Assembly: GCF_002090095.1 (NCBI RefSeq)
Contig: NZ_BBRJ01000002.1
Coordinates: forward strand, 1,116,817-1,180,816
Direction of reading: 5' to 3'
Source: Demequina sp. NBRC 110053
GTDB lineage: Bacteria; Actinomycetota; Actinomycetes; Actinomycetales; Demequinaceae
DNA length: 64,000 nucleotides
In this document: one piece after another, positions 1-10,715 of the stretch
How the letters are laid out: every line of letters starts with the position of its first letter
Numbering within the stretch: the stretch's first letter is position 1
Made by a program: the position numbers and the translations under genes
Notes under the pieces: model-generated
Database searches by the model: none
What the model was told of the DNA's origin: nothing
What the model saw: the letters and a program-made list of their open reading frames with translations, nothing else

Positions 1-2023
1 TGCTCGGCACCAGCGGCGGAACAGCCGTCGGCACCTGCGGCGGGACCTGGTGTGGCACCTGGTGCGGCGCAGCCACAGGCGCGAGCGGCGGTACCGCGGT
101 GGTCGGATTCTCGAGCTGAACCTCGACGGTGCCGGAGGAACCGCTCACCGTCGCGGCGCGCTCGCCGCTCGCGGTCACTCCCCTGCCGGAGTACACGGGC
201 GCGGTGAACGTCACGCCGTCGACAGTCGCTCGCGCCTCCGTCAATGTCACCGCAGCGCCTTCGGGGATGCGAGCGAGCGTGGCACTCGAGCCGTCGTGCA
301 CGTGGAGCACGCCGCTCTTGGCATCCGCGCCAGCTCCATAGGACCACGCCACGTCGAAGGGCGTGTCGCCCACCGCGGCCTCGCCCGGTCCGGTGACGTC
401 CTTGGTGAGGTGCAGGGCCCACAGCGCCACGCCGCTCGCGGCGCCGCCGGCGCTCGCCGTGTAGGTCACCTCCTTCGTGGTCGTGACGGATCCCGCCTCC
501 ACCGTGTTGGAGTATGCCTCGCCGGTGAAGGCGTCGAGGGGGTACGCGGTCGTGTAGCTGAGCACGTACTGCCCGCCATCGACGCGGCACGTCTGATCGC
601 TGATGCTCACCTCGAGAAGCTGGTTGGAGGCGTCGCTCCCGGAGGTGGACCACGACGCGCTGTCGAGGCCGTGAGTGCGCCCCAGGACGCGGCAGCTCAA
701 CGAGACGCTCTCAGGGTCCAGGGTGAGCCGGTCGGAGTAGCGGTCCTTGATGACCGCCTCGCCGGTTCCCAGTCCGGGAGCATCGGCCACCACGGTCCAC
801 TCGGCGCGCCGGTGCTCGTTGTCGCCCTTCACGGACTTGCTCAGTTGGGCCGGAGGGTTCCAGGTCGCGTGGGCCGTGGCGCGGGGTTGACCGGGCACGG
901 CCGCGATGTTCTCGAACGTCGTGCGGCTGTGTGCGGACGCCGGCAGCTCGGTCCCGTATGTGAGGACGTAGGTGCCGTCGCACTGCGAGTCGCTGATCCC
1001 CACGGTGATGCCATCAGGCCGGGCGGTGACGCTGAACCCGTGCGCTCCCACGCCCGAGGTGTGACCGGAGGTCTGCGCCTTGCAGCTCAGCTTCGCGTCG
1101 CCGAGGTACGTGAGCTCGTTCCCGCCGGACCAGGTGTCCGTGATCGTGAGGGCGCTGTGCGAGGGGCGCGCAGAGGTGGGAACGGTGACCTCCCAGTCGA
1201 TGCGGCGGCGCGTGGAGTCGACGCGCCGGGCGCGCTTGGTCGGGTGCGCGGCGGGGTGATAGGCGTGCGAGGTCTGCGTGTGGGGCTGGGAGGGCGTGGG
1301 CTCGTCGACCGTGAGCGGAATGCGGTAGGTCGCACCGCCGGCGCCCACGAGGTTCACGTGATCGGCGCCGTCGGTGTAGTGAGCGGTCACCTTGAACCAG
1401 AGGTCTCCGTGGACGTTCTGGTGGGTCGCTCCGTAGTCGTTGACGGTGCAGTCGATCGCGGAGTGCGTGACCTCGCACTCGCCCACCGGCACGCCGGCCG
1501 CGTCGAGCAGAGGGAAGGGCGCCACGGGCGTCGCGATCAACTCCGGAGGCAGCGAGAGCCCGAAGTGGCTGCCTGCTGGCGTGCCAGCCGGCTCCGCCCA
1601 GTCGGCGGCGACCGTGAGCTGATGGCCGTCTGCGACGGTGGAGACGCTGGCGCGCACGCGGGAGAGCGCGTCGAAGAAACCTGCGGCAGGCGCCGGAGCG
1701 GGTGCCACATCGGGCTCGTCCGGGGCGGGAGGTGCCGACGGCTGCTGCGCGGGCTCAGCCGCGGGGACTGGCTCAGTGGCGGGAGCCAGTTCAGCCGCAG
1801 GACGAGGCTCGGCGGACGGCGTCGGCTCGGGCGTGGGGGACACCGCCGGAGTCGACACGGTCGTGTCGGCGGCGGGAGCGACCTCTGCGGCGGATGCCGG
1901 GATGGCCGCGAGCCCGAAGGCCAGGATGGCGATGGCGACGACCGCCACCAGGGCGACGATCCGACACGCGACGGCGATGGCCAGGTTCGCTGTGCCTCGG
2001 ACGGTGCGGGCTACTGCATTCAT
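1..2023 (-). CDS. Secreted adhesin-like surface protein, C-terminus beyond window
   Basis: Open frame of about 674 codons read leftwards and still open at base 1, so the 3' end is missing. The ATG at 2023 is preceded by GAGGAA about 9 nt upstream. The first ~45 residues form a signal sequence with a long hydrophobic stretch (residues ~20-40) ending in an ASA-type cleavage site. A Pro/Ala/Glu-rich linker follows (to ~115), then Thr/Ser-rich beta-type repeats with regularly placed cysteines, some separated by about 90-120 residues. A further beta domain ends in an SGSSGTVEVQLENPT-like strand. The visible end is a proline-rich spacer (repeats of PHQVP/PPQVP), as often precedes a cell-wall anchor. 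Architecture resembles the giant adhesin at 22354-30648. Ligand unknown; a wall anchor is inferred, not seen. Confidence 0.75.
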   Translation of the reverse strand, partial: MNAVARTVRGTANLAIAVACRIVALVAVVAIAILAFGLAAIPASAAEVAPAADTTVSTPAVSPTPEPTPSAEPRPAAELAPATEPVPAAEPAQQPSAPPAPDEPDVAPAPAPAAGFFDALSRVRASVSTVADGHQLTVAADWAEPAGTPAGSHFGLSLPPELIATPVAPFPLLDAAGVPVGECEVTHSAIDCTVNDYGATHQNVHGDLWFKVTAHYTDGADHVNLVGAGGATYRIPLTVDEPTPSQPHTQTSHAYHPAAHPTKRARRVDSTRRRIDWEVTVPTSARPSHSALTITDTWSGGNELTYLGDAKLSCKAQTSGHTSGVGAHGFSVTARPDGITVGISDSQCDGTYVLTYGTELPASAHSRTTFENIAAVPGQPRATAHATWNPPAQLSKSVKGDNEHRRAEWTVVADAPGLGTGEAVIKDRYSDRLTLDPESVSLSCRVLGRTHGLDSASWSTSGSDASNQLLEVSISDQTCRVDGGQYVLSYTTAYPLDAFTGEAYSNTVEAGSVTTTKEVTYTASAGGAASGVALWALHLTKDVTGPGEAAVGDTPFDVAWSYGAGADAKSGVLHVHDGSSATLARIPEGAAVTLTEARATVDGVTFTAPVYSGRGVTASGERAATVSGSSGTVEVQLENPTTAVPPLAPVAAPHQVPHQVPPQVPTAVPPLVPS

Positions 2024-2287
2024 GGGGGACCACTTCCTCAGAGAGTTGAGCCGGAGCGTTCCTCGAGGGGGTCGTCATGGAGATCACCTCAGCGGCGATC
2101 GGCGGGGACTCGGTGGGCCCCGGCGTGTCATACCGTTGTGACAGTTCTCACGCTTCCACGGCGCCGCGGGGTCCGCTCGGGCCTTAGGTCCCATTTTTGG
2201 CGGATGTTCCAACAAATGTCCCGGTCCTGGTGCGTCAGGGCACGTAAGGACGGCCATGCTTCGAGCCTGGTCGCGCCCGCCCGGACC
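2024..2287. other. Intergenic region upstream of the adhesin, no gene seen
   Basis: No convincing coding sequence. It holds the leader of the leftward adhesin gene and imperfect inverted repeats: TGTCA at 2126-2130 with TGACA at 2139-2143, and an overlapping GTGA/TCAC pair just to the right. These could be operator half-sites, but no strong -35/-10 pair was identified. An open frame on the minus strand through 2128-2409 has no recognisable domain and overlaps the epimerase remnant. Confidence 0.4.
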
Positions 2288-2552
2288 GACGCCGTGATCC
2301 CCCTGGCGCGGGAGATCCAGCCCAACCCGACCGCCAGCGGCTCCGCAGAACTGATGTCACCGGGACCGCGAACGTGCTCGTGGCGGCTCGTGACGCCAGC
2401 GTGGCGCACATGGTGGTCGCGTCCTCGGTTGGCGCCTACTGGACGCTCACGAGCGCGACCACCCGGATGTGCTCATCACGCGGCTGCGCCCCGCGACGAT
2501 CGTCCGGCGCGATGCCGGAGCGCAGATGGTTCGCACGCTGGCCCAAGAATGA
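2288..2552 (+). pseudogene. Frameshifted remnant of an NAD-dependent epimerase/dehydratase
   Basis: Three short stretches in three different frames read in order like the middle of an extended short-chain dehydrogenase. From 2288, DAVIPLAREIQPN resembles the family's AVVHLAWxIQP segment. From 2341, LRRTDVTGTANVLVAARDAS followed by VAHMVVASSVGAYW resembles the N(V)xGTxNVLxAA...SSVxAY core containing the catalytic region. From 2460, HPDVLITRLRPATIVRRDAG resembles the VRxRPxxIxxRDAG substrate-binding segment. A stop follows at 2550-2552. No N-terminal Rossmann GxxGxxG motif or C-terminus was found, so at least two frameshifts plus loss of both ends are required. Sequencing error would not explain the missing ends. 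Confidence 0.7.
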
Positions 2553-2589
2553 CTCAAGTCCCGCCGCGACTGCGACGGGGCTTGTCCTG

Positions 2590-2665
2590 TGGCGCGCCCT
2601 GAGGGATTCGAACCCCCAACCTTCTGATCCGTAGTCAGATGCTCTATCCGTTGAGCTAAGGGCGC
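2590..2665 (-). tRNA. tRNA-Arg(ACG)
   Basis: Cloverleaf on the minus strand: acceptor stem GCGCCCT (2665-2659) pairs with AGGGCGC (2600-2594). The anticodon loop CTACGGA gives anticodon ACG, and the T-arm contains GGTTCGAATCC. CCA is encoded at 2592-2590. Confidence 0.96.
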
Positions 2666-2734
2666 ACGGCCCGTGCGGGCCGAGTCACGAGTATACAGGC
2701 TGTGCGACGCGCGTCGCGACGAGCCGGCTACGGG

Positions 2735-2824
2735 TGGCGGAGACGGTGGGATTCGAACCCACGGATGGGTAACCCCATCACATCCTTAGCAGGGATGCAC
2801 TTTCGGCCGCTCAGTCACGTCTCC
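2735..2824 (-). tRNA. tRNA-Ser(GCT)
   Basis: About 90 nt with the long variable arm of a class II tRNA. Acceptor stem GGAGACG begins at 2824; the anticodon loop CTGCTAA lies between CATCC and GGATG stems, giving GCT. The T-arm is GGGTTCGAATCCC, with an encoded CCA at 2737-2735. Confidence 0.96.
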
Positions 2825-2920
2825 CGATCGCCCACACAGGGTACCGGGCGCGGGGCGCGCTGAGCAAAGCGGATCCGACGAGCGGGTGATCAGGCCGCCC
2901 GCCGGTCGCGTTCCAGCCGA

Positions 2921-2971
2921 TCAGCAGCAGCCTCCGCTGCAGCAGCCTCCGCCGTTGTCGGTGTCCACCAT
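2921..2971 (-). CDS. 16-residue cysteine-rich peptide, divergent from arsR-like gene
   Basis: Reading MVDTDNGGGCCSGGCC then TGA: ATG at 2971-2969, stop at 2923-2921. It is preceded by a near-ideal ribosome binding site, AAAGGAGGTGA, five bases from the ATG, one of the strongest in the window. Four of 16 residues are Cys, arranged CC-SGG-CC, a tetracysteine pattern able in principle to bind As(III) or soft metals. It diverges from the ArsR gene at 3057, and the intergenic region carries the repressor-like palindrome. No transport or reductase gene follows; downstream on this strand is tRNA-Ser. I know of no named family. That it is translated and binds metalloid is inferred from the Shine-Dalgarno site, composition and context. 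Confidence 0.65.
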   Translation of the reverse strand: MVDTDNGGGCCSGGCC

Positions 2972-2985
2972 CGCGCTCACCTCCT

Positions 2986-2995
2986 TTCGACATAT
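2986..2995. repeat. Direct repeat copy of operator half-site
   Basis: TTCGACATAT here is repeated exactly at 3021-3030, 35 bp away. This copy lies immediately upstream of the Shine-Dalgarno site of the cysteine-rich peptide, where repressor binding could block its transcript. Confidence 0.5.
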
Positions 2996-3019
2996 ATCTC
3001 AAGCCGAGCGTGGCGCAGG

Positions 3020-3037
3020 ATTCGACATATGTCAAAT
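3020..3037. promoter_or_regulatory. ArsR-type operator palindrome
   Basis: ATTCGACATATGTCAAAT is an 18-bp inverted repeat with a single mismatched pair (C/A), like ArsR/SmtB operators in length and AT content. It overlaps a plausible -35 (TTCGAC, 3021-3026) whose -10 would be CATGAT (3045-3050, 18-bp spacer). That promoter would start transcription close to the ATG at 3057, making the repressor mRNA leaderless. Its position between divergent genes suggests autoregulation plus control of the peptide. Confidence 0.55.
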
Positions 3038-3056
3038 CTCGTGGCATGATCGCCTC

Positions 3057-3422
3057 ATGCCAGCGAGCCTGCCCGTGATCGACGCCTCCGAGACGCTGTG
3101 CTGCGCGCCGCTCGGCTCGGCGGCGTTCTCGCCCGAGCGCGACGCCGCCCAGATCGCGGCCAGGCTGCGCGCGATGGCCGACGCCGGGCGCGTGCGCATC
3201 CTGCAGGAGCTCTCGTGCTGCGACGGCCACGCGCTCACCACCACCGAGGTGGCGACGCTGCTGGAGGTGACAGCCGCGACGGCGAACCATCACCTCCGAC
3301 AGCTCGAACGCGCCGGCCTGGTGGCTCCTCGCCGTGACGGTGCGAGGGTGCTCTACGCCCTGCGCGCGGACAACGTGAGGGCGGTCGCCGCGGCGCTGAG
3401 CATCGGCTGCGACTGCTGCTGA
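3057..3422 (+). CDS. arsR: ArsR/SmtB-family arsenite-responsive repressor (CgArsR1-like)
   Basis: 121 residues from the ATG at 3057; the frame is open further upstream but lacks a better start. A winged helix-turn-helix spans roughly residues 30-105, with VATLLEVTAATANHHLRQLERAGLV as recognition region split across helices 4-5. Cysteines sit at positions 15, 16, 54 and 55, plus a C-terminal CDCC. The Corynebacterium glutamicum ArsR1 As(III) site is known to be Cys15-Cys16-Cys55, so spacing matches that subtype rather than the E. coli CVC motif. Inferred role: releases its operator on As(III)/Sb(III), derepressing itself and the divergent cysteine-rich peptide. No arsenite pump or arsenate reductase is adjacent. 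Confidence 0.85.
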   Translation: MPASLPVIDASETLCCAPLGSAAFSPERDAAQIAARLRAMADAGRVRILQELSCCDGHALTTTEVATLLEVTAATANHHLRQLERAGLVAPRRDGARVLYALRADNVRAVAAALSIGCDCC

Positions 3423-3463
3423 CGCTGAGACGTCCCGCGCAGGCGAGCGCGCCGCACCAGCGG

Positions 3464-3551
3464 CGGAGAGTGTGGGATTCGAACCCACGGAGACGGGTTA
3501 CGCCTCAACAGTTTTCAAGACTGTCACCTTCGGCCGCTCGGTCAACTCTCC
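3464..3551 (-). tRNA. tRNA-Ser(TGA)
   Basis: Class II tRNA on the minus strand. Acceptor stem GGAGAGT starts at 3551 and pairs with ACTCTCC (3471-3465). The anticodon loop CTTGAAA between ACAGT and ACTGT gives TGA; the long variable arm and GGGTTCGAATCCC T-arm are present. No CCA is encoded. Confidence 0.95.
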
Positions 3552-3609
3552 TCGGCGACCCGAGGATCGCCAGCGACCATTGTGCCAGCCCGAGCGAGCG
3601 CATCGGCCC

Positions 3610-4041
3610 TCAGGAGGCCGGACCGCCCCCATGCCAGCCCGGCTCGAGGCCAGGGGTGACGACGGTGAGGCCGTAGAGCTCCGCCGCCTGCGCGAGCTCC
3701 GCGTCGTACGTGGCGATGGTGTCCATCGCGGGATGGGCGACCGCCGCCCCCAGGTGCAGGGCTGCGAACGGCTTCAGGACCGCGGCAGCGTGCGTGGACA
3801 CGGAGACGTTCTGGTCGGAGAAGCGGATCATCGCGATCTTCGCGCGCACCTGATCCACCACGTCATACGCGCGAGCCTTCTGGTCGCGCGGCATGAGCTC
3901 CGCCGCCTGCCGCAGCTCCGTCACGCCTAGCTGCGTCATCGCGACCTGGTCGATGCGAGGCACCACCCAGGCGTTCCACTCGTCGAAGTACTTCACGCCG
4001 GGCAGGAACCTGCACAGCGCGGAACCGTCGACATAGATCAC
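3610..4041 (-). CDS. PIN-domain protein, VapC-like toxin or RNase
   Basis: 143 residues if started at the GTG at 4041, which gives the typical PIN opening VIYVDGSALCRF with the first catalytic Asp. A mid-protein acidic residue (VTELRQAAELMPRD) and the C-terminal DTIATYDAELAQAAELYGLTVVTPG, with Asp residues and the usual LAxAAxxxGLxVVTPG ending, match the fold. PIN proteins cleave RNA using Mg2+. No VapB-like antitoxin ORF precedes it; the gene upstream on the same strand is the conservon GTPase. It is therefore a solitary PIN gene, or an antitoxin too small to recognise is missed. The upstream extension to 4095 is Arg-rich and unlike the family. Confidence 0.75.
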   Translation of the reverse strand: MIYVDGSALCRFLPGVKYFDEWNAWVVPRIDQVAMTQLGVTELRQAAELMPRDQKARAYDVVDQVRAKIAMIRFSDQNVSVSTHAAAVLKPFAALHLGAAVAHPAMDTIATYDAELAQAAELYGLTVVTPGLEPGWHGGGPAS

Positions 4042-4111
4042 GTCACCAGGGTATCGGCGCAGGCGGCGAGCCGATGCGCACGCGCCTTTGCGCACGCATC
4101 GGCCGTCTGAG

Positions 4112-4723
4112 TCAGCTCTTCTTGAGCTGCTTCATCGCCAACTGCACGACGGCGATGAGCGCCTGCTTGGTCGCGGCCTTCTCGCGAGCGTCCGTGTACA
4201 TGACCGGGACCTCGGGCGGGATGCCCAGGGCCTCACGAACATCCTCGAGGGTGTGGCGAGCCACGCCATCGAAGCAGTTCACGCACACGACGAACGGCAC
4301 GCCGCGACCCTCGAAGTAGTCGACGGCCGGGAAGCACTGGTCCAGACGCTCGGTGTCGACCAGCACGACCGCGCCGATGGCGCCCCGCACGAGGTCGTCC
4401 CACATGAACAGGAAGCGGTCCTGGCCCGGCGTCCCGAACAGGTACAGCCACAGCGAGCCCGGCAGGGCGATGCGGCCGAAGTCCATGGCGACGGTGGTGG
4501 TGGTCTTGCGGTCGGTCACGCCGCCGGCATCGTCGATGCCGATCGACTTCTCCGTCATCGCCGCCTCGGTGTTGAGGGGGTCGATGTCCGAGATCGAACC
4601 GATGAAGGTGGTCTTGCCCACCGCGAAGCCGCCCGCGATCACGATCTTGACGACCGTGGGGGCGACGGTGGGGGCGGAGGTCGCGACCGCCGCGTCAGAG
4701 GGCTGCGATGCCATCGAGGACAC
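4112..4723 (-). CDS. cvnD: Conservon GTPase CvnD
   Basis: 203-residue small GTPase of the bacterial MglA/Arf-like class, last gene of the conservon. The P-loop GGFAVGKTTFIG lies near residues 30-42. The switch II/G3 region is FGTPGQDRF, where Gln replaces the usual Glu-type context, and the G4 site is VNCFDG, a degenerate NKxD, as usual in this family. The N-terminal ~20 residues are Ser/Ala/Thr-rich. The start overlaps the end of the DUF742 gene by 29 bases, implying translational coupling. In Streptomyces conservons CvnA-D act as a membrane-associated, G-protein-coupled-receptor-like signalling module; the signal here is unknown. Confidence 0.92.
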   Translation of the reverse strand: MSSMASQPSDAAVATSAPTVAPTVVKIVIAGGFAVGKTTFIGSISDIDPLNTEAAMTEKSIGIDDAGGVTDRKTTTTVAMDFGRIALPGSLWLYLFGTPGQDRFLFMWDDLVRGAIGAVVLVDTERLDQCFPAVDYFEGRGVPFVVCVNCFDGVARHTLEDVREALGIPPEVPVMYTDAREKAATKQALIAVVQLAMKQLKKS

Positions 4724-5090
4724 TCTCCAGGAGACTCAGGGAAATGCCGCCGGACTCGTCGTGGGTCGACGTGTCGTCGGCAGTTCCGCCGGTGTGAATC
4801 GTCAGGTGATTTTCTTCAGCAAGATCCGTCACCAGCACACGGACCACACCGAGCGGAAGCCGGGTGTGAGCCGAGAGCTCGGCGACGGATTGATATTGAC
4901 CTGTAGCGAGCTGCAGGATCTTCTTCTTCTCCGGGGTGAGCCCCTTCAAAGCCTGGGTGGTGGAGCGCGACTCGACCAGGGCCTCCATGGGGAGGTCCTT
5001 GCTGGCAGCGCTCACGCGGCCGCCGGTCACGGCGTAGGGGCGGACCGTGTAGGTCTCCTCCTCGCCGTGCGGCGTCATCGCGTCTGTCAT
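4695..5090 (-). CDS. cvnC: Conservon protein CvnC (DUF742)
   Basis: 131 residues from the ATG at 5090; the longer open frame to 5228 overlaps cvnB and is not needed. YTVRPYAVTGGRV near the N-terminus is the usual DUF742 opening, and KKKILQLATGQYQSVAELSAHTRLPLGVVRVLVTDLAEENHL is a winged-helix-like region. It begins 11 bases after the cvnB stop and overlaps cvnD. In characterised conservons this protein interacts with the kinase-like CvnA and the GTPase. Confidence 0.92.
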   Translation of the reverse strand: MTDAMTPHGEEETYTVRPYAVTGGRVSAASKDLPMEALVESRSTTQALKGLTPEKKKILQLATGQYQSVAELSAHTRLPLGVVRVLVTDLAEENHLTIHTGGTADDTSTHDESGGISLSLLESVLDGIAAL

Positions 5091-5101
5091 GATCCGTCCC
5101 C

Positions 5102-5542
5102 TTACGAGCGCAGCAGGCCGTCGGTGGGAAGGTTCTGACGCATCTCGGTGATGAGCTGCGGGGTGAGGGCGTTCTCGGTGCGCGACACCAGCAGTGTCAT
5201 CTCGTAGCCCACCAGGCCCACGTCGCACGTCGAGTCGGCGGCCACTGCCAGCACCGAGCCGTTCGAGACGCTCATGAGGAAGAGGAACAGCTCGTCCATC
5301 TCGATGATGGACTGCCTGACCTCACCCGCTCCGAGCTGTCGCGCCGCGCCCCGGGTGAGGCTCGCCATGCCGGAGACGACCGCGGCCAGGGTGTCGCCAC
5401 CGGTGCGGTCGAGGTTCTTCGACATGGCCATGAGCAGGCCATCCGCGCTCACCACGAGGGTGTGGCGAGTGCCAGGCACCGTCTGAACGAAGTTGTCGAG
5501 AAGCCATCCGAAGTTGGTGGCCTCAGTGCTGAGCTCGGTCAC
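5102..5542 (-). CDS. cvnB: Conservon roadblock/LC7 protein CvnB
   Basis: 146 residues from the GTG at 5542, chosen because AAGGAGG lies 4 bases upstream; an in-frame ATG at 5569 has no such site. The single roadblock/LC7 domain spans most of the protein (FGWLLDNFVQTVPGTRHTLVVSADGLLMAMS, then LTRGAARQLGAGEVRQSIIEMDE, then GSVLAVAADSTCDVGLVGYEMTLLV). Roadblock proteins act as GTPase-activating or scaffold partners for MglA-type GTPases, here CvnD. Confidence 0.92.
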   Translation of the reverse strand: MTELSTEATNFGWLLDNFVQTVPGTRHTLVVSADGLLMAMSKNLDRTGGDTLAAVVSGMASLTRGAARQLGAGEVRQSIIEMDELFLFLMSVSNGSVLAVAADSTCDVGLVGYEMTLLVSRTENALTPQLITEMRQNLPTDGLLRS

Positions 5543-5615
5543 AGCTCCTCCTTGCTGGTAACGCTCCATCGGTGGAACGAGTTCTGGGTGGTAGGGATGC
5601 TAGTCGGTTGGGGTC

Positions 5616-8600
5616 TCACGAGTCGGTCGCCTCCGCAGGCTCAGTCTGGCGCTCGAAGCTCGCGACGTCATCCTTCGCGCGCTGCGTACCCGAGTAGAAC
5701 GAGCTGAAGCGGTTGCGAACAGCGTCCGCGTCGCGCTCGGCCGGGGCGATCTCCACGGACTCCTCGATGGGCTTGACCTCGACCGGCGCCGCGCCCGTGG
5801 GGCGGCGGCGCTGGAGGCCAGCACTCGTCTTCTCGATCTTGGGCCGCTCGGCCGCGAGCGAGCTCAGCTCGGAGAACACCGCCGACGTCACGTCCTCGCC
5901 ACCTGCGGAGTCCGGCTGGATCACCGGCTGGTAGCTGGTCGCGACCTCGGGCTCGGCGGCCTGGAGCGCGCTCGCACCGGCAGACTCCCATCCCGCCGGC
6001 GTGGCGAGCTGCTCGGGCGTGAAGCTTCGCGCGCCTCCGTCGGCTCCCCATGCAGTCGCGGGCTGCTGTGGCGCCGCGGGGAAGTCCTCCGCGCGGGGCT
6101 CCGGCTGCGGCTCGGGCGCGAAGGACGTGGGCGCGGACGGGGATGCCTGCCACGGCGACTGCGCCGGCTGCCGCGCGTCGTGCTGGGGCGACTCGTGCTG
6201 GGGCGACTCGTGGTGCGGCGCGGCCGGCTCGGGCGCGGACGGCACCTGTGGCGCGAAGGCCACCGGAGCTGACGGCACGGAAGGAGCCTGCGGTGCGCTC
6301 GTCGCCTCGGGCGCCGGCTGCGGCGTCCCGAAGGCGAAGCCGTTCTGAGCCTGCGGCGCGGGCTGCTCGTCGCGCGGGCCAGCGGCCTCGGGGACGGACG
6401 GCGTCTGTGGCGCGAAGGCGACCGGAGCCGATGGCACGGACGGGACCTGCTGGGCACTCGCGGGCTCCGGCGTCGACGTCACGGAGCTGAACGCGTGAGG
6501 CGATGACGCCGGCGGCGCGCTCGGCTGGGCCAGCGGCGCAGCGCCGGTGGCCTTGCGGTTGCCACGGCCGAACAGCCGGGCGAAGAACCCGGGGCGCTCC
6601 TCCGCGTCGTGGTCGACGGCACTCTGAATCAGGTCATCGAGGCTCGGGTTGGACCGCGCGCCTGGACTCGGAGCCGAGCTCGCGCCCGGGGCCGCGAGCT
6701 CCTCCTGGCGCTCGGCATCCACGGGCTCTGCAGCGGCCACCGGCTCGGCCACGGGCTCAGGCGCCGGCGATGCGAAGCCCGGCGCGGCCGGGGCGAACCC
6801 GGGTGCCGGCTGCTGGGCGACGGGCGCGGCCGGAGCATCGTGCTCGACCGCGGACTGCGACCACGGGGCCGCTGCCGGGGCAGCGGACGGGGCCGACGGC
6901 GCGTGCGCCGACTGCTCCCACGGCATGCTCGTCGGTGTGCCGTCGTGAGGCGCGGCCGGAGCGGGCATGTCGTAGCGATCGTCGCTCAGGGAGACCGCGT
7001 CGACGCCGCTGTGCGGATCCGGAACGTCCGAGGGGGCGTCGTCGGCAGGCACGGCCGCGGCTCGCGCGTCCTCCGCCTGGTCCGCCTGGTCCGCCTGACC
7101 GTGATCGGCCTCGGCGGCCTCATCCTCGTCGCTCTCGAGGCTCGGGATCACCATGGGAGCAGCGGAGTCTGCGCCGAACTCCGGCTCGAAGTCGTCAGCG
7201 CTCGAGGCGGACAGGGCTGGCCCGTCGCTCTCCAGGTCAGGGACGGACTCGACTCGGGTCTCGTCCGCCGCAGGGGTCGCGGGCGCCGATGCGCTCGCCG
7301 GCTCGTCTTGGTGCGCGACGGCACCGGTAGCCGCCAGCCCGACGCCCGTGGCTCCAGCGAGCTTGGGCATCGAGAAGGTCGGCAGGTCAGCGTCAGGCTG
7401 CGGCGACAGATCGTCTTCGGCGGCGACGGGTGCCGACGCCGCGGAAGGCGCCGTCGGCGCCGAGGCCGCGGAGCTCGCCGACGCGAACGACGTCGCGGAC
7501 CCGACGGGCGCGTCGGCCCCATCTGCAGCGTTCGCGTCGGCAGCGTGCGCGTCCGCGGAGCTCGGAGCGCCGCCATCCTCGGCTGCCCGCGCTCCGAAGA
7601 ACGCGGCCGCGCCGAAGGCGGTCGCGCCGGCGGCGATCGCAGTGTCACCAGAGCCGTCGGCGTCCGCGCCCTCACCGTCCGCGCTGCCCTCGGGAGAGGG
7701 CGCGTCATCGGGCTCGAGCGACGGGATGGTCAGCTCGGGCTCGGCCGGCGCCGCGGACTCCGCGGGCTCCGCCGGCTCGTTGGCCGCAGCAAGGGCGGAT
7801 GCGTCGAGGCCGCCACGACGGGCAGCGTGGCCGAGCGACTCCTGCTCGGGATCGACCGGCGCCTCGTCCTCGGTGGACCTGCGCGACCGGAAGCCGCGGA
7901 ACATCGACGCGCGCTCCTCGGCGGACTGCGGCGCGAGCTCGCTGGGCGAGACGGCGGGCGTGAAGCCGCCGGCCTGCTCCGCCTCGAGGGCGGACAGCTG
8001 CTCGTCGGTCGCGGTCGCAGGAAGTCCGACGATCGACTGCTGCTCGCGCTCGGCGTCGGCGGGCGCGGGAGCCTCCCGGCGACGGCGCGTGGGCAGGCCC
8101 GCTCCGGTGGTCCCCTCGGTGAGGTCTGCGGGGTTGGACTGCTCGCCGGAGGGCGCGGCGGCGGCATCGGCGGCGATCAGCGCCTCGATCGAGTTCGGGT
8201 CTGCCTGCGGCTGCGGGCTGGCCTCCTGCTCGGTGGTCGCCGGGCCTGACGCGGCACCACGGCCCGCGAGCAGGCTTGCGCCTTCCTCGATCACCGTCGG
8301 GGTGTACGCGGGTGCCGCGGTGGCGCGCGATGGCAACTCGGAGATCTCGTCCGCGGCGTCGTGGCTCACGAGCGCCGCCGGGGCATGAGTCGCGGCGTCG
8401 ACTGCGGAGCCCGAGATGTGCTCCTCCGGAACGCTCTCCTCCGACACGAACAGCGACTGCGGCATGGTGACGGTCGCCACCGTGCCCTTGTTCTCCTGGG
8501 AGGCGATGCTGACGCGCGCACCCACGCGACGGGCGATGCGGCCGACCACGAACAGGCCCAGGCGCTGCGCGCCCAGGATCTCGGACGCGGCCGACGAGGC

Positions 8601-10715
8601 GACGCGGTTGTTGGCCTCGGCGAGCTCCGACTCGGTCATGCCGATTCCGGAGTCCTCGATCTCGACCACGTACGTCCCGTCGATGTGCCGCGTGCGCACC
8701 ACGACCTGGGTGCCAGGGTCGGAGAACACGGTCGCGTTCTCGAGGAGCTCGGCGAACAGGTGCGCTGCGGTGAGCGCCGAGTGACCGAGCATCGAGGGAT
8801 CGGCGTCGAGCTCGAGCTGCACGCGCTCGTAGAGCTCGATCTCCGACGACGCGGTGCGGATCACGTCGGACAGCGGCATCGGACGGCGCAGGCGACGGCC
8901 GGTATCGATGCCTGCGAGCACCAGGAGCGACTCGGAGTTTCGACGCATTCGGGTCGCGAGGTGGTCGAGCGCGAACAGCCGGGTCAGCGTATCCGGGTCG
9001 TCCTCGGTGCGCTCCATCTCGTCGATCGACTTGAGCTGGCGGTTGAGGAGGACCTGGTCACGACGGGCGACGTTGACGAACATCTCCGAGATCGAGCCAC
9101 GCAGGGCGGCCTGCTCGGCCGCGATCGACAGCGTCGCGGCGTTGACGCCGTTGAACGCCTCCGCGAGCGTGCCGATCTCATCACGGGACTCGACGGTGAT
9201 CTGCACCTCGGAGACGTCCACCTGCTCGCCCGGCATCGCCACGCGCTCCACGAGGCGCGGCAGCTCCTGGCGCACGGCGGTCGCCGTCGTGGTCAGGCGT
9301 CGCAGCGGGTTGATGATGCGGCGGGCGATGAGGAGGGCGATGATGATCGACGCCACGACGACCAGCACGGCGACGATGGCCGTCAGGATGGCCTGGGTGA
9401 GCGCCGCTCCGGCGTCTGCCGCCACCATGTCCTCGACCTCGTTCCAGAGGTCCTCGCGCAGCGGCTCGTAGACCGCAAGCTCCTCGTCGACCTGCTCCGC
9501 CCACTGGGCGTTGCTCTGGGCGGCCAGGTCGGTGTCGGTGCCTCGGATGACCGCGGCACGCACGGACTCGTACGACTGCTGGTCGAGGGAGCCGTCGAAT
9601 CCCACGGACGCGCCGAAGTCGGGGACGGGCTCGACGCCGGCGATGGCGGCGGACGAGTCCTGCGCCTCCTCGAGCGTCAGGTCCGTGCGGACCGTCAGGT
9701 TCCTCGCCTCGGTGGACTCGCCCACCTGGAAGGTGCCCGCGCGGATCAGCTTCTCGAACTCTGACTTCTCGAACTCCATGTTCTCGACGAGCGCGTCGAG
9801 ATCGCCGTACGCCTGGAGCGCGGCGACGACCTCGCGGTCGGTCATCGCCACGGCGATGTCGTCCGCGGCGCCGACGATCGTGAGCAGGATGCTGCGGTAG
9901 AAGCCGGAGTAGGTGGCGACGTTGCCCTGCGCGGCGCGCACGCCGGTGCGAACCGACTCGAGGTTCGCGATGGCGGCCTCGCCGGACGACAGCGCGGCGA
10001 CGGCGGCGGCGTTGTCCTCGTTCTGCTCGAGGCGCGCGGTCGAGCCCAGCAGCGCGGCGATGGCGCGGTCGACGTCGGCGGCGCTCGAGTCGACCTGTGC
10101 CTGCAGCGGGACCGGCTCGGTGAACAGGCGTGCAGCGGTGTCGCGCTCGTAGCCGATGCTGGACTCGAGGATCGTGAAGCTTCCGCCGACCGTCGCAGGG
10201 GCGTCCTCCGCGACTGCGGCGACTGCGGCCTGCGTCGCGGTGTACGCGTCCTGCATCGCCGCGACCTCGTCCTCGGCGGGGAACGTCAGCCAGCCCCCCT
10301 CCTCGGCCGGCGCGCCCAGCGTGACGGCGCGCTGCGCAGCGAAGAGCGGGTCGTCGGGACCGCTCACTCCCAGCGCGGCGTAGAGCTCGGGCACCAGCTC
10401 CGACGCGTCCTCGGCCTGCAGGTCGGCAACGGCCGCGTCGACGGCCTCGTCCGTGTCGTTCTGTCCGAGCACTCGGGCGTTGCTCACGCCCTGCACGATG
10501 TCCACGAACTCGGTTCCCGCCCAGCGCTCGTCCTGCAGCGCGGCCTCGAGCCCGCGGGTGGTGTCGAGGGTCTCGACCAGATCCTGGGAGTTGCGGGCGG
10601 CACTGAGGTCCTGGGAGGCGCCGTAGGTGATGAAGGCGGCCGCGAGCACGAGCACCAGGATCGGCACTGCCACCACCGCGAGGATCTTTCCCCGAATACC
10701 AAGCCTTTGGAGCAT
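5616..10715 (-). CDS. cvnA: Conservon sensor CvnA, histidine-kinase-like, with giant disordered tail
   Basis: 1699 residues. TM1 is at ~10-30 and a nitrate/nitrite-sensing-type extracellular helical domain runs to ~440. TM2 is at ~440-465, followed by HAMP, then a dimerisation helix with FALDHLATRMRRNSESLLVLAG. The HATPase_c domain shows N-box ELLENATVFSDPG (~655), G1 EDSGIGM and G2 LGLFVVGRIARRVGARV (~720). Family members are commonly 800-1000 residues. Here ~930 further residues (765-1699) are Ala/Pro/Asp/Glu-rich low-complexity sequence, including two copies of SVPSAPVAFAPQ and a short HESPQHESPQH repeat. An SD-like GGGAGAG precedes the ATG. It heads the cvnABCD operon; 73 bases separate it from cvnB. 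Confidence 0.93.
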   Translation of the reverse strand: MLQRLGIRGKILAVVAVPILVLVLAAAFITYGASQDLSAARNSQDLVETLDTTRGLEAALQDERWAGTEFVDIVQGVSNARVLGQNDTDEAVDAAVADLQAEDASELVPELYAALGVSGPDDPLFAAQRAVTLGAPAEEGGWLTFPAEDEVAAMQDAYTATQAAVAAVAEDAPATVGGSFTILESSIGYERDTAARLFTEPVPLQAQVDSSAADVDRAIAALLGSTARLEQNEDNAAAVAALSSGEAAIANLESVRTGVRAAQGNVATYSGFYRSILLTIVGAADDIAVAMTDREVVAALQAYGDLDALVENMEFEKSEFEKLIRAGTFQVGESTEARNLTVRTDLTLEEAQDSSAAIAGVEPVPDFGASVGFDGSLDQQSYESVRAAVIRGTDTDLAAQSNAQWAEQVDEELAVYEPLREDLWNEVEDMVAADAGAALTQAILTAIVAVLVVVASIIIALLIARRIINPLRRLTTTATAVRQELPRLVERVAMPGEQVDVSEVQITVESRDEIGTLAEAFNGVNAATLSIAAEQAALRGSISEMFVNVARRDQVLLNRQLKSIDEMERTEDDPDTLTRLFALDHLATRMRRNSESLLVLAGIDTGRRLRRPMPLSDVIRTASSEIELYERVQLELDADPSMLGHSALTAAHLFAELLENATVFSDPGTQVVVRTRHIDGTYVVEIEDSGIGMTESELAEANNRVASSAASEILGAQRLGLFVVGRIARRVGARVSIASQENKGTVATVTMPQSLFVSEESVPEEHISGSAVDAATHAPAALVSHDAADEISELPSRATAAPAYTPTVIEEGASLLAGRGAASGPATTEQEASPQPQADPNSIEALIAADAAAAPSGEQSNPADLTEGTTGAGLPTRRRREAPAPADAEREQQSIVGLPATATDEQLSALEAEQAGGFTPAVSPSELAPQSAEERASMFRGFRSRRSTEDEAPVDPEQESLGHAARRGGLDASALAAANEPAEPAESAAPAEPELTIPSLEPDDAPSPEGSADGEGADADGSGDTAIAAGATAFGAAAFFGARAAEDGGAPSSADAHAADANAADGADAPVGSATSFASASSAASAPTAPSAASAPVAAEDDLSPQPDADLPTFSMPKLAGATGVGLAATGAVAHQDEPASASAPATPAADETRVESVPDLESDGPALSASSADDFEPEFGADSAAPMVIPSLESDEDEAAEADHGQADQADQAEDARAAAVPADDAPSDVPDPHSGVDAVSLSDDRYDMPAPAAPHDGTPTSMPWEQSAHAPSAPSAAPAAAPWSQSAVEHDAPAAPVAQQPAPGFAPAAPGFASPAPEPVAEPVAAAEPVDAERQEELAAPGASSAPSPGARSNPSLDDLIQSAVDHDAEERPGFFARLFGRGNRKATGAAPLAQPSAPPASSPHAFSSVTSTPEPASAQQVPSVPSAPVAFAPQTPSVPEAAGPRDEQPAPQAQNGFAFGTPQPAPEATSAPQAPSVPSAPVAFAPQVPSAPEPAAPHHESPQHESPQHDARQPAQSPWQASPSAPTSFAPEPQPEPRAEDFPAAPQQPATAWGADGGARSFTPEQLATPAGWESAGASALQAAEPEVATSYQPVIQPDSAGGEDVTSAVFSELSSLAAERPKIEKTSAGLQRRRPTGAAPVEVKPIEESVEIAPAERDADAVRNRFSSFYSGTQRAKDDVASFERQTEPAEATDS

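Follow-up and report, generated by a model that had tools for sequence, protein, structure and literature searches.

Genes and features at the locus

The window, by which is meant the whole analysed stretch of 64,000 nucleotides from Demequina sp. NBRC 110053, has near its beginning an arsR gene and, diverging from it, a very short open reading frame that encodes a peptide with four cysteines. The features of the locus, with positions counted in the window, are as follows.

2875..2905, minus strand: hairpin after the micro-ORF that may be a terminator; its z of -0.8 is not significant in the window, and many relatives have a strong one
2921..2971, minus strand: micro-ORF encoding MVDTDNGGGCCSGGCC (16 aa, 4 Cys), from reading of the ORF; a Cys-rich ORF is in the same place in 11/11 syntenic family loci
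2980..2987, minus strand: Shine-Dalgarno sequence AAAGGAGG, 8 nt before the micro-ORF ATG; at least 5/6 bases of AGGAGG in 11/11 family members
2986..2998, no strand: operator-like repeat 2, which abuts the upstream end of the Shine-Dalgarno sequence; from a repeat search
3007..3035, minus strand: putative micro-ORF promoter suggested by sequence, with TTGACA (3035-3030), a 17-nt spacer and a weak -10 element CACGCT (3012-3007)
3020..3037, no strand: operator-like near-palindrome 1, ATTCGACATATGTCAAAT, containing -35-like hexamers of both genes
3022..3050, plus strand: arsR promoter-like site TCGACA-17-CATGAT from a promoter scan (9/12 matches; mean of shuffles 0.0)
3057..3422, plus strand: arsR, a repressor of the ArsR/SmtB family related to the Rv2640c group, from family models

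The original prediction, that a tetracysteine ORF with a strong ribosome binding site lies opposite arsR, is confirmed: MVDTDNGGGCCSGGCC is read from 2971 to 2921 on the minus strand and AAAGGAGG from 2987 to 2980. The start codon ATG occupies 2971-2969, the stop codon 2923-2921, and the nucleotides of the frame are ATG GTG GAC ACC GAC AAC GGC GGA GGC TGC TGC AGC GGA GGC TGC TGC TGA. Apart from the micro-ORF, no coding unit is evident between the window arsR and the tRNA-Ser gene. With tRNA-Arg and tRNA-Ser(gct) genes on one side of the locus and a tRNA-Ser(tga) gene on the other, it also holds, as had been claimed, that neither a pump nor a reductase adjoins it; an Rfam search gave tRNAs only. 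Between positions 2590 and 3551 of the window the arsR cassette sits between tRNA-Ser(tga) and tRNA-Ser(gct). Beside the tRNA genes, at 4112-10715, a conservon-like cluster can be recognized by eye, with small GTPase-like, DUF742-like and roadblock-like proteins and a histidine-kinase-like ORF of 1699 aa.

The product of the micro-ORF had no match among the Pfam metallothioneins when an artificial tandem of the 16-mer was used as query, since at least 20 residues are needed. No RiPP modifying enzyme is evident by eye among the ORFs at window positions 1-9000 and in the short flanks of relatives.

The repressor scores above the curated cut-offs of PF01022 (33.3 bits, cut-off 22) and NF033788 (58.7 bits, cut-off 55). 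Its best full-length NCBIfam match is the Rv2640c-family model NF041413, with 97.8 bits over positions 1-118 of 118, which is below the curated cut-off of 155. Cysteines at 15, 16, 54 and 55 had been pointed out before and are present, and to these must be added 118, 120 and 121. The As(III) ligands of the Corynebacterium glutamicum ArsR are given as Cys15, Cys16 and Cys55 in PMC13236881. The cysteines of the window ArsR resemble them, but in the alignment its N-terminal pair is offset by one residue and Cys55 by two. Among 10 aligned orthologs there is no variation at the N-terminal CC, Cys118 and Cys120, while the ArsRs of two peptide-bearing family members (L018 and L092) are without Cys54/55; nine ArsRs of other families (the A3 set) have the N-terminal CC plus CxC. 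In one ortholog (L011) the C-terminal tail, CGASCDCC, is similar to the peptide. Judged from these residues, the sensing site would vary among loci, with As(III) as its likely ligand and Cd(II), Pb(II) or Sb(III) as possible ones. No site geometry was taken from an AlphaFold model of the window ArsR, whose pLDDT is 75.6 on average and about 52 in residues 1-20.

Between the two genes, both an 18-bp palindrome and a direct repeat with 35-bp spacing were found, as predicted, the palindrome with one mismatched pair. The repeat copies TTCGACATATATC (2986-2998) and TTCGACATATGTC (3021-3033) are identical at 12/13 positions with 35 bp from start to start, and the palindrome ATTCGACATATGTCAAAT encloses one of the 13-bp copies. 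Within 3020-3037 the hexamer TTGACA could serve the micro-ORF and TCGACA, in the opposite direction, arsR. The putative micro-ORF promoter is absent from the output of the promoter scan, which did report the arsR site; there, the -10 element is only 6 nt before the arsR ATG, and it is possible that the arsR mRNA is leaderless. In 11/11 family members TTGAC lies upstream of the start codon at -54 to -66, and in 21/23 divergent cases of all families it occurs within the 90 nt before that codon. In these divergent cases palindrome-like repeats mostly surround TTGAC and recur near the Shine-Dalgarno sequence.

When the source genome is scanned for TTCGACATATATC with at most 2 mismatches, 10 rows are obtained, as compared with 2 for the reversed control; 3 of the 10 are in the arsR/micro-ORF intergenic region, where they correspond to 2 physical sites, and one other match (C2:572075) is just upstream of another arsR. 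A larger TTCGACATATATC regulon in this genome is not claimed.

Conservation and joint occurrence in Demequinaceae

A clear ortholog of the window arsR (E 1e-24 or better) exists in 10 of 44 Demequina genomes, the source genome included. An ArsR profile search of 47 family genomes gives 12 at E 1e-20, namely these 10, a genome of the sister genus (G045, locus L092, E 2.2e-37) and G032 (best E 1.2e-33). The sister-genus locus and the 10 Demequina orthologs are all flanked by the same two genes, tRNA-Ser(tga) and tRNA-Ser(gct), and all 11 of these syntenic loci have a divergent Cys peptide beside arsR; by score alone this is 11 of 12 genomes. Three other ArsRs, all in G032, match the profile (E 1e-23 to 1e-33) without a divergent peptide. 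The same genome has, at the 3' end of an Rv2640c-like arsR and on the opposite strand (L093, from 1381, plus strand), a Cys-rich ORF of 38 aa, MSTATPTDRPNLMDTGKETEESGCCGECTCGGEGKADK, which is possibly a metallothionein-like gene of different layout.

The peptides of the family are MVDTDNGGGCCSGGCC, MTTILDCCGGGGGCCGGGGCC, MGDSTTCCDGGGCCGTGCC, MESMTQCCGGGCCGTGCC, MTGTTMNGGGCCGGCC, MMSSATNGGGCCGGACGC, MTLENINGCCDGGSADGCCENGCCGTGCC, MELENVNGCCDGAGAGGCCEDGCCDSGCC, MAFDYITKCGDGGGKNGDGDKDGKGGCC, MTTNANDNCCSGSGCCGTPCC and MGSIGPGDGCCGGCGCGCC. Nine of the 11 have two or more CC pairs; the L014 peptide has one CC and two single cysteines, and the L017 peptide is degenerate with 3 Cys and one CC pair. 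The start codon is ATG in every case, the stops are TGA (4), TAG (4) and TAA (3), and cysteine is encoded by TGC 54 times and by TGT 7 times. The check that had been proposed for the micro-ORF, conservation of the CC frame and its Shine-Dalgarno sequence next to arsR in relatives, has thus been passed, with a Cys peptide in all syntenic loci.

To exemplify how the two genes come and go, consider the interval between the two tRNA-Ser genes. A tRNA search reached 44 Demequina genomes, 30 loci were fetched and both tRNA-Ser genes were found in 26. At 6 cassette sites the tRNA-Ser genes are 630-714 bp apart, as against 58-263 bp at 20 sites without arsR, and none of these 20 sites has an ORF of 8-60 aa with at least 3 Cys between the tRNA-Ser genes. 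In the remaining 4 of the 30 loci, G002 among them, the two tRNA-Ser genes were not both seen, and these loci were left unscored. As far as scored, arsR and the micro-ORF behave as one unit. In the peptide-less genome G002 (L290) about 2 kb separate two tRNA-Ser matches, which may reflect a different insertion at the same site. No co-occurrence with acr3, the gene of the Acr3 pump, was seen in Demequina: it is over the cut-off in 3/10 peptide-bearing and in 10/34 other genomes. In G040 acr3 is a short fragment only, below the cut-off, and it was not found in the source genome.

Similar peptides in other families of the phylum

The survey beyond Demequinaceae rests on 129 ArsR loci, taken from the Rv2640c-family-model matches listed in 396 genomes of the phylum, and on 8 loci added later, which makes 137. 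The strict scan, which demands a Shine-Dalgarno sequence with at least 5/6 bases, a length of 8-60 aa, two CC and a CC near the end, was applied to 132 loci, that is to the 129 ArsR loci and 3 acr3 loci (L138-L140), some of them within 2 kb of each other. It gave 20 matches, 9 of which are CadI stretches and were removed as in-frame CadI (L110, L116, L118, L156, L167, L181, L188, L195 and L208, where L110 and L167 are the same gene), and 11 of which are micro-ORFs. Nine of the 11 micro-ORFs diverge from arsR, at 55-116 nt from the start of the ArsR match, and encode MIGDPRALGGDGCCDSDCCGGGAGCC, MDPDCCPPGCC, MNEGCCPSGCC, MRIDGPCCPPGCC, MSGECCKPGSDCCSGDDCC, MRVDDPCCPPDCCPPGCC, MAPIKITGDAGGDDSDCCSGCGPGCC, MCEECPPGCCGPGCC and MPDPGCPDCCPPDCC. 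A relaxed scan, with 27 matches in 195 loci, adds the divergent peptides MKLRTDGGCCGGGCSC, MRVDDPCCPPDCCLPASC and MRLDPCCPDCPECPPDCC; from its matches L028, L065, L096, L112, L121, L133, L144, L156, L168, L179 and L208 were removed as non-specific or as protein tails. A match in L276 was set aside as well, since it is an ORF out of frame at the ArsR gene. The 8 later ArsR loci have no divergent peptide. Besides Demequinaceae, then, 12 of the 137 surveyed ArsR loci of the phylum have one, and most such ArsRs have other genes opposite them.

The arsR-adjacent peptides belong to families labelled f31, f49, f62, f71 and f76, plus f1 when Demequinaceae are counted, and two further peptides away from arsR (L122 and L125) belong to f6 and f55. 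Over the whole set the length is 11-29 residues. In the order that contains f31 a close ArsR (E 1e-38) is found in 9/27 genomes and the peptide in 8 of these 9, the ninth ArsR facing cadI; of the 9 ArsRs, 6 built the query and had been chosen for having the peptide, so that three are independent, two with and one without it. A close ArsR at E 1e-36 is present in 79/396 genomes of the phylum, most of them without the peptide. In L252 (G539) the stretch opposite a close ArsR is tRNA-like by eye; the operator-like sequence upstream of this ArsR is the same, but there is neither peptide nor cadI, and perhaps the unit was lost there. On plasmids there are 4 distant Rv2640c-type matches to the window ArsR, and another plasmid search matched many ordinary ArsRs; among viral contigs 9 ArsR relatives were found, with no such peptide at their loci. 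A 20-position peptide profile gave no match in 396 genomes of the order and missed the source genome as well, which means that the profile is blind.

As controls, five copies made from the 297-kb set with a Markov-1 model gave the strict scan no match, and neither did 549,890 bases of real sequence not near arsR, of which 276,568 are from named Actinomycetota; the control of the relaxed scan is weaker, with 6 matches in the same 549,890 bases. Since such an ORF is conserved beside orthologous arsR genes and the strict controls are empty, the micro-ORF is beyond what chance would produce. It could be imagined that the sequence, which is repeat-like (repeat family D1) and very short, is no gene at all but a fortuitously open GGC/TGC repeat or a small RNA. 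This is hardly credible, given not only those controls but also that the start codon, the Shine-Dalgarno sequence and the cysteines are kept in all 11 syntenic loci while all three stop codons are used, and that peptides with other residues (CCPPGCC) occupy the same place in other families.

What follows the micro-ORF bears on whether it could be a leader peptide, one of the options in the original prediction. A cysteine-responsive attenuator, in which consecutive Cys codons sense Cys-tRNA and control what lies downstream, would account for the runs of Cys codons and for a hairpin after the ORF, and has a precedent in the polycysteine leader ORFs known in mycobacteria. Downstream there is a tRNA-Ser gene in Demequinaceae and, co-directional beyond the hairpin, glmM in L129. 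Against this, the downstream content differs by lineage: in L169 it is a convergent truA (just under the cut-off, on an incomplete stretch) and in L228 a convergent gene for ribosomal protein S9, rpsI, so that no conserved co-directional coding gene is common to the lineages compared (Demequinaceae, L129, L169 and L228). Over 25 units the hairpin after the stop codon has a mean z of -3.5, with z below -2 in 17; it is not below -2 in the other 8, and positive in L018 and L125. Many of these hairpins are compact and directly 3' of the stop codon. Having no common gene downstream and a hairpin that closes many units argues against a leader peptide, and the unit furthermore occupies the place that effector genes have in sister loci. 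We therefore regard the attenuator as very unlikely; the pattern fits units that would be single micro-genes rather than leaders.

The sister loci also suggest what such a micro-gene may do. Related ArsRs with a similar promoter layout face cadI/ArsI genes (L097 and L248 over the NF041414 cut-off; L109-L113, L253 and L256 by eye), arsenate-reductase-like genes (L171 and L183, family-model matches below the cut-off) or arsM (L262 and L263, NF008823 over the cut-off). If the ArsR instead sensed persulfide or an essential metal, the peptide could be a redox, sulfide or copper/zinc thiol buffer and have nothing to do with arsenic. Sensors of sulfur and of Cd/Pb/Zn among the ArsR-family relatives, and the fact that Cys54/55 are not universal, are in line with such a buffer, but the arsenic and cadmium genes faced by the related repressors make it quite unlikely.

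A pattern search of the fetched loci gave 27 distinct CadI-type tails, with two CC or more in 14, one in 12 and none in 1. The linkers between the CC pairs of these CadI/ArsI-type tails (L047, L109-L234) are variable. In L125 a CadI-type protein (Pfam Glyoxalase) without a CC tail is followed by a co-directional ORF encoding MMRSGCCDEGCCEPGCC, and the ArsD of L096 (NF033727, 108.9 bits, cut-off 90) has the C-terminal end GGSCCSGPGCC. Because of the tail pattern, the MMRSGCCDEGCCEPGCC ORF and the ArsD end, we infer that the micropeptide is a stand-alone version of the Cys tails found on arsenic proteins, where descent and convergence are alike possible at such length. In the source genome, other arsR genes (L001, C3 at about 34.7 kb; L002, C2 at about 572 kb) lie beside an aquaporin-family ORF (L001, Pfam MIP) and arsC-like ORFs, the latter named by eye.

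A proposed two-gene divergon and its known counterparts

Taken together, the comparisons point, with somewhat more than even confidence, to a two-gene metal(loid)-response divergon of a minimal smtB-smtA-like kind, where a de-repressed thiol micropeptide would bind As(III) or a soft metal. The earlier suggestion of a chelator under an arsenite-type repressor appears to be the best reading. In such a divergon, ArsR bound to the two repeats would repress both arsR and the micro-ORF. The repressor would be released when its cysteines take up As(III) or another soft metal(loid), of which Sb(III), Cd(II) and Pb(II) are examples; the ligand site may be made up of the N-terminal CC plus either Cys54/55 or the C-terminal cysteines. 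The micro-ORF would then be translated into a peptide that, by binding the metal(loid) through its CC pairs, would serve as a minimal buffer or carrier in the manner of a metallothionein. Its action would be that of the CC-rich tail at the C-terminus of CadI/ArsI or ArsD, encoded here by a gene of its own.

A different role for the same two components would be that the peptide strips metal(loid) from ArsR, or hands it over, and in this way sets the threshold of the repressor rather than detoxifies. To our knowledge, members of the ArsR family need no second ArsR-binding partner for repression, and for this reason sensor tuning seems unlikely, in spite of arsR and the micro-ORF being present or absent together, of both products being Cys-rich and of the ArsR tail that resembles the peptide. 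It would gain from E. coli ArsD, whose CC pairs at the C-terminus were predicted to serve regulation (PMC4562236).

Returning to the metal-binding divergon, the similar peptides of 11-29 residues beside related repressors in other families probably catch toxic metals or metalloids too. More tentatively, and with slightly less than even confidence, we propose that there is a class of encoded metalloid-binding micropeptides of 11-29 aa with paired cysteines in several families of the phylum, each forming a complete transcription unit controlled by its own ArsR, with counterparts in the CC tails of CadI/ArsI and ArsD, and with some members near the engineered biarsenical tag CCPGCC. The proposed class is without a name so far, and among the matches listed in a literature search, to which subscription journals were mostly outside scope, no title or abstract opening describing such peptides was found. 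If the class is real, a single repressor together with a single peptide of 11-29 residues can make up a response to arsenic or metals, and genes of such size, which easily escape gene finders, would have been overlooked in actinobacterial genomes. Such genes would supply natural thiol peptides, each with a sensor of its own, which could be of use in biosensors and for the question of how small a metallothionein can be. The CadI tail pattern suggests, in addition, that the Cys tail of an arsenic enzyme is a module that can be separated from it.

Of the known systems, the C. glutamicum ArsR1 (PDB 6J0E) resembles the window ArsR in that the latter has one CC near its N-terminus and another at 54/55, in the regions where ArsR1 has its ligands, and differs in that the window ArsR has three more C-terminal cysteines and that L018 and L092 do without Cys54/55. 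ArsD offers a likeness in sequence, as its end in L096 resembles the GGGCCSGGCC of the micropeptide; the 16-aa micropeptide is, however, without the ArsD domain and without the chaperone site Cys12/13/18 described in PMC4562236. A repressor of the Rv2640c family that faces cadI shares, in L097, a similar look of the ArsR and a similar operator layout with the present unit, whereas the window ArsR is below the cut-off of that family and no CadI is over its cut-off in the 47 Demequinaceae genomes. The tetracysteine biarsenical tag CCPGCC is engineered, while the micropeptides are natural; CCGGCC, CCPPGCC, CCEPGCC and CCGPGCC all occur in them.

From the smtB-smtA divergon the present one differs in its product, as the peptides have 11-29 aa with CC pairs and SmtA is far longer, about 56 aa, with no sequence relation seen. 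In Synechococcus PCC 7942 that divergon pairs the Zn-responsive repressor SmtB with the metallothionein SmtA (PMC8790569), and there as here a repressor of the ArsR/SmtB family diverges, at a distance of about 100 bp, from a small Cys-rich gene, which is the arrangement by which a smtB-smtA-like divergon is recognized.
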